DNA from: Nitrosarchaeum sp.
Lineage (GTDB): Archaea > Thermoproteota > Nitrososphaeria > Nitrososphaerales > Nitrosopumilaceae
Reading direction: 5' to 3'
DNA length: 41,580 bases
NCBI GenBank assembly: GCA_003569705.1
Contig: BGOU01000009.1
Coordinates: 1-41,580 of the forward strand
The notes under the pieces are model-generated. The model searched no databases. It was not told the origin of the DNA and worked only from the letters and a program-made list of their open reading frames with translations. Positions within the stretch are counted from its first letter, which is position 1. Every line of letters begins with the position of its first letter. A program made the translations under genes and the position numbers. Shown here in pieces: positions 3,585 to 27,792 of the stretch.

Positions 3585-3776
3585 GGATGAATATTTACAG
3601 TTTCACAGTATTATAATCTGATAGGCAACATGCATCAAATAGAGAATAGGTATTTTTTAAAAATCAGAACGGATCTAAAAAAATAAAAACAGATCTTAGA
3701 CATACGTACCAAAGTTTTATTTGAAATACTTTATCGGGTAACACTTTAAAGATCCAAAATTTTTATTGGATTTTGT

Positions 3777-4984: not shown

Positions 4985-5000
4985 GAAATAAGAACAAGCG

Positions 5001-5090
5001 TTTATTAGACCTAAAAGAGGTTTATGGGTATCGGAATAATGACGAGTAGGCAATGAGCTTTTTCGTCATTGCTTAAGAGAAGAAAACAAA
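5001..5090 (+). promoter_or_regulatory. Promoter and structured leader of the DEAD-box gene
   Basis: A TATA-like tttattag at 5001-5008 predicts a transcript start near 5030 and a leader of about 60 bases. Within it aatgacga (5038-5045) pairs perfectly with tcgtcatt (5063-5070). A second pair, gcaatga (5050-5056) with tcattgc (5066-5072), uses the same 3' bases. The two hairpins therefore exclude each other. No strong Shine-Dalgarno sequence is seen before the ATG at 5091. The pairings are seen directly; a regulatory switch is inference. Confidence 0.45.
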
Positions 5091-6437
5091 ATGACAAAAT
5101 TTCAAGATTTAGGATTAAAAGATGAGTTACTGAAAGGAATTCATGAAATGGGATTTGCAGATGCATTTCCTATTCAAGAAGCAGTAATCCCAGTGTTACT
5201 TACAGGTAGAGATGTTGTAGGACAAGCACATACTGGTTCTGGTAAAACAGCAGCATTTGCTTTGGCTATGCTTCAAGAGATACAACCAAAAAAAGGCATC
5301 CAAGGTTTGATCATGGCCCCAACAAGAGAGCTTGCAATGCAAATTGCAGGAGAGATAAAGAAATTTGGCAAGTACACAGGAATTAGAGTAGCAACAGTGT
5401 ATGGAGGTCAGGGAATGGGCTTACAATTAGATGCACTACATAGAGGTGTAGAGATAGTAGTTGCAACACCTGGAAGATTAATTGATCATCTTAAACGTGG
5501 TTCAATAGAACTGGGGGATATTACCCACATTGTATTGGATGAGGCAGATACGATGTTAGACATGGGATTTATTGACGATATTCAGTTTATTTTAGATCTT
5601 GCCCCAGAAGACAGAGTAATGTCATTGTTTTCAGCAACAATGCCAACTACAATCCTCAGACTCTCTGAAGAGTATTTGAAAAATCCAAAACAATTTCTTC
5701 TTGACGCAGATGATCTTAGTGGAGAAGGAATAGACCAAGCATTTCTCGTAATTAAAGATAGAGACAAAATGAAATATCTTATTGATTTTATCAAACCAGT
5801 TAAAGGTCAAATCATAGTTTTCTGTTCTACAAAATACAGAACCCGAGATGTTGCTAAATTCTTACATCAAGAAAAATTCGATACCGTTGCAATAGAAGGA
5901 GACATGTCGCAAAGTAGGCGAGAGCAATCAATGTCAAAATTCAGAAATGGTAAGGTGGATATTCTTGTTGCAACAGATGTCGCTTCTAGAGGAATTGATG
6001 TGCCAAGAGTAGAATTAGTAGTCAACTATGATGTTCCAAATCAAGAAATGGTGTATTTCCATAGAATTGGAAGAACCGCAAGAGCAGGTGCAAAAGGAAG
6101 AGCAATCACACTAGTATCATACTCATCAGTAGGAGATTGGAATTTAGTTAAGCGTCAAATCAAAGTACCTTTAACAGACTTGAACAAAGAGATGGGAATA
6201 GAAATTTCAATTCCTGATCCTCTAAAAAGACAAGTTTCATCCAGAAGATATGGTGGTGGAAGTTCATCAAGATCTGGCGGATACTCCAGAGGTCGTTCTG
6301 GCGGATACGGAAGATCCGGTGGATATGGTGGAGGAGGTAGCAGTAGAGGAGATGCAAGAGATGACAGAAGCAGTGGAAGAAAAAAATACGGAGACCGTGG
6401 CGATAGAAATAGCTATGGTGGACGTAGCAGATGGTAA
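5091..6437 (+). CDS. DEAD-box ATP-dependent RNA helicase with Gly/Arg-rich tail
   Basis: The 448-residue protein has all the helicase motifs in order: a Q motif (FPIQEAVIP, Gln29), AHTGSGKT (46-53), PTRELAMQ, TPGRLIDHL, DEAD (150-153), SAT, VATDVASRGID and HRIGRTARAG. These are the two RecA-like domains of SF2 RNA helicases. From about residue 385 the chain becomes a low-complexity tail rich in Gly, Ser, Arg and Tyr (GGYSRGRSGGYGRSGGYGG), typical of RNA-binding RGG-type regions. In bacteria and archaea such helicases unwind structured RNA, often in the cold. The unusual leader upstream supports regulated expression. Confidence 0.95.
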   Translation: MTKFQDLGLKDELLKGIHEMGFADAFPIQEAVIPVLLTGRDVVGQAHTGSGKTAAFALAMLQEIQPKKGIQGLIMAPTRELAMQIAGEIKKFGKYTGIRVATVYGGQGMGLQLDALHRGVEIVVATPGRLIDHLKRGSIELGDITHIVLDEADTMLDMGFIDDIQFILDLAPEDRVMSLFSATMPTTILRLSEEYLKNPKQFLLDADDLSGEGIDQAFLVIKDRDKMKYLIDFIKPVKGQIIVFCSTKYRTRDVAKFLHQEKFDTVAIEGDMSQSRREQSMSKFRNGKVDILVATDVASRGIDVPRVELVVNYDVPNQEMVYFHRIGRTARAGAKGRAITLVSYSSVGDWNLVKRQIKVPLTDLNKEMGIEISIPDPLKRQVSSRRYGGGSSSRSGGYSRGRSGGYGRSGGYGGGGSSRGDARDDRSSGRKKYGDRGDRNSYGGRSRW

Positions 6438-6486: not shown

Positions 6487-6720
6487 ATGCATACAGGATT
6501 TATTTTATTAAATTGTGATCTTGGCGCAGAAGAGTATATTGTAGAAGAATTAAAACAAATGCCCAATATCAAAAACGCACATCTTACTTTTGGCGCATAT
6601 GATGTAATTGTAGAGGTAAATACAGAAAATCAGCAGGCGTTTGATAAGACAGTGGCGGGAATTAGAAAATTATCAAGGGTGGAAAGTACAATGACACTAA
6701 GTGTCATAAACTCCGAGTGA
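6487..6720 (+). CDS. Stand-alone Lrp/AsnC effector (RAM) domain protein
   Basis: This 77-residue protein contains only the alpha-beta ligand-binding half of Lrp/AsnC regulators (FILLNCDLGAEEYIVEELKQ, TFGAYDVIVEV). It has no helix-turn-helix. Such domain-only proteins assemble into oligomers that may bind amino acids or modulate full-length Lrp partners. It follows the helicase by 49 bases in the same direction. A close paralogue of 76 residues lies at 16794-17024. Confidence 0.85.
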   Translation: MHTGFILLNCDLGAEEYIVEELKQMPNIKNAHLTFGAYDVIVEVNTENQQAFDKTVAGIRKLSRVESTMTLSVINSE

Positions 6721-12704: not shown

Positions 12705-13069
12705 ATTCTGTATATCGTGTTTTAGAAAAACAAATTTAAAATATTACTAAATTTAAAATTATATTATAAATCCATTTACATAATTCTACGATTTTCACAT
12801 CATGTTAAGAAATTTTCTTTGTATTTGATCATGATTCTCTTTATCATGTAAACTAATTTGAGAAATAAAAAATAATTCTATTTTCCTGGAATTAAATCCA
12901 AGAGGATACTAACAGTCAGGTATTTTCTAAAAACAATAGACTCTTCACATAATATGATAAATGAGTGAATTATGCATAAAGAATCATAATTCTAATCACC
13001 TAAATTTAGAATGAGTCAAGAACACAATATTGCAGATGTTATCCATTTGAAATTATATAACTAAAAAAA
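12705..13069. other. AT-rich intergenic region with an inverted repeat
   Basis: There is no gene in these 365 very AT-rich bases. Two copies of aaatttaaaat (12732-12742, 12749-12759) lie 17 bases apart. An 8-base perfect inverted repeat (gaattatg at 12967-12974, cataattc at 12985-12992) with a 10-base loop lies beyond the 3' end of the kinase gene and could end its transcript. Nothing else is supported. Confidence 0.4.
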
Positions 13070-27524: not shown

Positions 27525-27792
27525 TTCAATAAACATAATTCAAGATTAATTAAAATCAAGATGTTGAATTAACACCTTGTAAAAAACACTCAAGATATTA
27601 GTACAGCCAACTCCAATAATGACCAAAAATGGATTATTGGATATTGGAATATTTACCGGTTTTGCGGATTTTTTCTTGATGGTGCATAAAAAACGGCATT
27701 TGGAATGCCAAATACATAATAAAAATTCCAAAAAATATCGCCTCACATCACAAGAATCTTTGAATTAAATACCCCTTTTTTCAAATAGAACT

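Follow-up and report, generated by a model that had tools for sequence, protein, structure and literature searches.

A conserved leader RNA with two mutually exclusive folds precedes the DEAD-box helicase gene of Nitrosopumilaceae

Why should the short leader of an archaeal DEAD-box RNA helicase gene contain two hairpins that compete for the same bases? The question arises from a 41,580-nt stretch of the genome of an ammonia-oxidising archaeon, Nitrosarchaeum sp. (assembly GCA_003569705.1, contig BGOU01000009.1), hereafter the window, for which an initial annotation made from the sequence alone had described two such hairpins and guessed at a temperature- or helicase-sensing RNA switch. Nitrosopumilaceae are among the most abundant marine archaea, and to our knowledge almost no leader-RNA regulation has been described in them; a literature search found none for this helicase gene. 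Judged from comparison with relatives, the leader is a conserved RNA element absent from the Rfam 15 catalogue. Very probably it controls the helicase gene as a switch, and it is present nearly family-wide in one copy per genome.

The gene behind the leader had been called a DEAD-box helicase gene, and profile searches agreed, placing it nearest to CshA. Its product matched the Pfam domains DEAD (1.1e-50) and Helicase_C (1.2e-32), its best NCBIfam match was CshA, below the cut-off of the CshA family, and its tail was rich in Gly, Arg, and Ser. Directly 3' of the gene, positions 6487-6720 of the window encode a short stand-alone protein with an Lrp/AsnC ligand-binding domain.

Both hairpin stems were found at the positions previously reported, competing with each other, and both were longer than described (Table 1). 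The stem 1 core (AATGACGA/TCGTCATT, 5038-5045/5063-5070) is perfect and reaches 9 bp with the wobble pair G5046-U5062. The stem 2 core (GCAATGA/TCATTGC, 5050-5056/5066-5072) is likewise perfect and is extended by G5049-U5073, A5048-U5074, and U5047-A5075 to 10 bp, including one G-U pair. The picture of two competing stems was therefore right, but it had overlooked an inner stem, P2, formed within the stem 1 fold by 5048-5051 and 5057-5060. Since positions 5066-5070 are needed by stem 1 and stem 2 alike, the two stems cannot coexist. A pseudoknot holding both stems was rejected, because the abutting 5' arms and overlapping 3' arms leave no linker, and this arrangement makes the folds mutually exclusive. 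The leader can be read as a series of repeated blocks (AAUGA, CGAG, UAGGC, AAUGA, GCUUU, UUCG, UCAUU, and GCUUA). In fold 1, AAUGA, CGAG, and the UAGGC core pair with the blocks after the loop; in fold 2, UAGGC-AAUGA pairs with UCAUU-GCUUA. The predicted transcript start near 5030 is indirectly supported by the spacing between the TATA box and stem 1 and by the onset of conservation at about this position, which would place the start upstream of stem 1 and not downstream of 5045. The Shine-Dalgarno-like stretch forms a best anti-SD duplex of -3.1 kcal/mol that ends at -7.

Table 1 Features of the helicase gene and its leader in the window
Feature	Position	Strand	Basis or remark
Promoter: BRE-like AACAAGCG and TATA box TTTATTAG	4993-5008 (TATA 5001-5008)	+	Kept family-wide
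Inferred transcript start zone (~5030)	5028-5034	+	TATA spacing; conservation onset after variable spacer
Stem 1, 5' arm AAUGACGAG	5038-5046	+	Folding, covariation, independent RNAalifold
Stem 1, 3' arm UUCGUCAUU	5062-5070	+	Folding, covariation, RNAalifold
Inner stem P2, loop AAUGA (5052-5056)	5048-5051/5057-5060	+	MFE; part of stem 1 fold
Stem 2, 5' arm UAGGCAAUGA	5047-5056	+	Counts, swap test, tree tests
Stem 2, 3' arm UCAUUGCUUA	5066-5075	+	Counts, swap test, tree tests; 5066-5070 common with stem 1
Purine-rich, weak Shine-Dalgarno-like stretch AGAGAAGAA	5076-5084	+	Outside both stems; abuts stem 2
DEAD-box RNA helicase gene (448 aa; CshA-like core, RGG/Gly-Ser-rich tail)	5091-6437	+	Pfam, NCBIfam

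Positions 5001-5090 folded at -22.4 kcal/mol (z = -3.35), and one of 200 shuffles was equally stable. The chance occurrence of competing stems was estimated from the window and from shuffled sequences. Among 20,000 dinucleotide-shuffled versions of the 61-nt leader, 8 contained competing perfect stems of 8 and 7 bp. Such pairs also occur at three other sites of the 41.6-kb window (3631-3711, 12961-13021, and 27591-27671), which are AT-rich and probably due to chance, so that by itself the number of such pairs is no more than mildly unusual. The case for a functional element rests on comparative evidence drawn from related sequences.

For this comparison, the upstream regions of helicase orthologues were collected, giving 164 leaders (151 distinct, with 110 distinct cores) from about 18 genera of a single family, placed as Nitrosopumilaceae by close matches that include Nitrosarchaeum, Nitrosopumilus, and Nitrosotenuis (leaders are numbered L and genera g below). 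Each leader had the same order of a TATA-like box, a variable spacer, the conserved element, and then the helicase start codon. Most leaders had 35-40 nt between TATA and stem 1, a few genera had 32-34 nt, and 6-8 nt separated stem 1 from the inferred 5' end. Stem 1 of at least 6 bp was present in 109 of the 110 distinct cores. The position between the promoter and this one gene stayed fixed despite changes of neighbours: at two loci (L022 and L270) the upstream DsbA-like gene was not found, and the leader was still with the helicase. In leaders of g15 and g16 (e.g., L225 and L200), the helicase starts with TTG and retains an MTKF-like N-terminus, and in g16 an AGG or AGGA lies immediately 3' of stem 2.

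A covariance model of the element matched the genome of the window once (E = 8.5e-17), and no further credible copy was found there (next E = 3.2). Across the class, the model detected the element in 127 of 296 genomes, and the matches listed were all from Nitrosopumilaceae. No Rfam 15 family reached its threshold on the leader, and our literature search found no description of this leader element. The element is a new RNA family that would work like known two-state leaders.

Compensatory changes in the upstream regions of relatives, proposed earlier as the check on both stems, were found in each of them, with strong support for stem 1 and moderate support for stem 2. In an alignment of 49 sequences, 98% of cells in the main helix of stem 1 were paired, and both-sided changes occurred at five of its seven pairs, a result matched by none of 500 shuffles. 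RNAalifold recovered stem 1 unguided. On the helicase-gene tree, pairing exceeded an independent-column null (p < 0.0005), and p was 0.003 when a lineage that lost stem 1 was included. For the inner stem P2, cognate arms beat swapped arms in 396 of 400 draws.

One-sided changes in stem 1 were nearly all of the G-U type and rarely of the A-C type, which argues for an RNA on the + strand and not a DNA site. This bears on a further explanation, in which the sequence serves as an operator on the DNA, made of repeated half-sites, or contains a short regulatory upstream ORF beginning with an AUG at 5039. AATGA does occur twice as a direct and once as an inverted repeat, and the reading frame AUGACGAGUAGGCAAUGA is present in the window. 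However, the G-U-tolerant, strand-asymmetric changes and the variable repeat spacing favour RNA over an operator, and the start codon of the upstream ORF is not conserved, as the AUG is missing in L106, L163, and g15, where stem 1 is kept. We consider both variants highly improbable.

For stem 2, 87% of cells were paired, compared with 21-52% in slid versions. Its covariation score was reached by 21 of 500 shuffles and its number of both-sided pairs by 8 of 500. In 398 of 400 draws, pairing was better between arms of one genome than between arms exchanged across genera. Most negative controls of this swap test fell near half, but the combination of the promoter spacer with a stem 2 arm scored 377 of 400, so that the test alone is not decisive for stem 2. 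Under a tree-aware null, p was 0.035, and 0.007 with one more divergent genome. Substitutions in the stem 2 core preserved pairing in 45 cases and broke it in 12. These in-register counts come from the covariation and tree analyses and not from a helix finder that overstated stem 2 by picking up stem 1 bases, as happened in g13 and a few other cases. Two other pairings were discarded after the same swap test: sequestration of the start codon by the shared arm, where cognate sequences did better in only 25 of 400 draws, and a helix between the U-run and the purine stretch, where 254 of 400 gave no signal.

Individual lineages showed how the two stems have changed. In the clade of L104, L106, and L141, C5067T was matched by a G-to-A change in both competing 5' arms. 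In genus g21 (L194, L191, and L192), L194 retained both stems with many paired changes; in the sister species L191 and L192, stem 1 is lost and an 8-bp stem 2 remains, still in register after changes in its two arms. The two outer pairs of stem 2 were frequently unpaired, and the stem was gone or reduced in most of g13, in g15, and in part of g7, so that the switch is not universal. By eye, a downstream GACAGA in six leaders of g13 (L237-L239, L241, L245, and L246) is complementary to UCUGUC, the 3' arm of stem 1, and in most of g13 this motif may have replaced stem 2 as the competitor of stem 1. Overall, the comparison gives stem 2 moderate support.

The main rival to a switch is that the hairpin of stem 1 and the inner stem matters by itself, as a 5'-terminal structure that stabilises the mRNA against decay from the 5' end or aids initiation, and that the complementarity of stem 2 is a by-product of the repeats, AAUGA and GCUU each occurring twice. 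Consistent with this, stem 1 is far better supported, nearly universal, and close to the inferred 5' end, it outlasts the loss of stem 2 in g13 and g15, and fold 1 is by far the more stable. However, a 10-bp stem 2 in most genera, the swap test, the concerted triple change, and L191 and L192 with stem 2 and without stem 1 would be left unexplained, and we regard a role for the hairpin alone as rather doubtful.

Computed energies favoured fold 1 by a median of 4.0 kcal/mol at 37 °C, 5.4 kcal/mol at 20 °C, and 6.3 kcal/mol at 5 °C over 85 leaders. At 37 °C, 75 of the 85 leaders gave fold 1 an advantage of 1 kcal/mol or more, which grew in the cold; the remaining 10 had a difference below 1 kcal/mol or favoured fold 2. 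With fold 2 about 4 kcal/mol less stable in a typical leader by this calculation, it may rarely form. In the leader of the window, fold 1 was also computed to be the first to form as the RNA is transcribed, and going directly from it to fold 2 meant crossing a barrier that rose from 18 kcal/mol at 37 °C to 28 kcal/mol at 5 °C.

These values speak against the temperature-sensing switch suggested by the initial annotation, in which temperature alone would shift the balance as in an RNA thermometer or cold switch. Such a role would suit the reports that cold-shock DEAD-box proteins occur in all Nitrosopumilales genomes compared (PMC8397731) and that archaeal deaD genes are listed as cold-induced in papers cited in PMC9800685. 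However, computed energies showed no crossover between 5 and 37 °C in the leader of the window or in almost all leaders, fold 1 being favoured and more so in the cold. Together with the very high barrier, this makes a pure thermometer distinctly unlikely, and any use of fold 2 would need a remodeller.

Binding of a protein or small molecule to one fold, for example at the conserved AAUGA loop or the U-rich internal loop, could also set the balance, either as autogenous binding or as a riboswitch. The loop and its flanks are conserved beyond pairing, and such leaders usually act by alternative pairing. However, the 47-nt element has no multi-helix pocket, the loop varies in some clades (CACUAU, UUCG, and GGUGA), and the helicase gene is not metabolic; we think such a ligand unlikely.

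We tentatively favour a cis-acting regulatory RNA with two exclusive folds that the helicase remodels in feedback on its own gene, a reading that we take seriously and place short of probable. Autoregulation of the helicase through the leader is our best guess, and we infer the ON fold, the remodeller, and the feedback as follows. Fold 1, arising first during RNA synthesis and normally the more stable, would expose the start codon together with most of 5076-5090 and be the translation-permissive default. Fold 2 would pair GCUUA right up to the ribosome-binding stretch and be less permissive; that stretch itself is not inside stem 2, and a lowering of translation by fold 2 is guessed. Because unaided conversion from fold 1 to fold 2 would be too slow, a remodeller would be needed, and the helicase itself is the simplest candidate, since the 9-bp stem 1 suits the size of duplex unwound by DEAD-box proteins. 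Proteins of this kind typically open duplexes of about that length. When helicase is plentiful, the leader would pass into fold 2 and expression would fall; when helicase is busy, as in cold or RNA stress, fold 1 would persist and expression would rise. Sensing of helicase activity fits a high barrier and a single copy always linked to the same gene. A stronger version, a family-wide archaeal switch that reports free helicase because its barrier is readily crossed only by the product of the gene, seems somewhat unlikely; if true, the messenger would gauge the unoccupied helicase of the cell. At 60 nt, the element is a small and concrete model in which to study the sensing of cold or RNA misfolding by archaea and the question of whether helicases gauge their own activity on their own messenger.

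Related behaviour is known from other systems. The cyanobacterial helicase CrhR of Synechocystis regulates its own expression (PMC3485376). It too is a DEAD-box RNA helicase, under post-transcriptional control that is partly self-dependent and linked to cold; unlike here, the evidence is expression data, and the organism belongs to another domain of life. Two mutually exclusive hairpins also characterise bistable RNAs, whose refolding is very slow in the cold and accelerated by chaperones (PMC8565331). That case concerns a model RNA and a bacterial ATP-independent chaperone, whereas here the downstream gene encodes an ATP-dependent remodeller. Among archaea, the deaD genes of Methanococcoides burtonii and Thermococcus kodakarensis are cold-regulated according to Lim 2000 and Nagaoka 2013, as cited in PMC9800685. 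The likeness lies in the archaeal DEAD-box helicase gene, and the cold induction is theirs. The leader is probably involved in that regulation as well.

Outside the family, the helicase leaders of Nitrososphaeraceae (L271-L286) gave no match to the covariance model. They contain a different conserved nested hairpin, with an outer ACAAAAG/CUUUUGU around ACGGCGGA/UCUUCCGU. Structured leaders before the helicase may predate the Nitrosopumilaceae element, which we regard as a lead because single-leader fold z-scores outside Nitrosopumilaceae were modest. Several of the Nitrososphaeraceae leaders also offer their 3' arm an alternative partner, a downstream AAAGUGA that may be a ribosome-binding site. 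Long imperfect hairpins of unrelated sequence were also seen just 5' of the helicase gene in other families of the order (L287, L290-L293, and L295).
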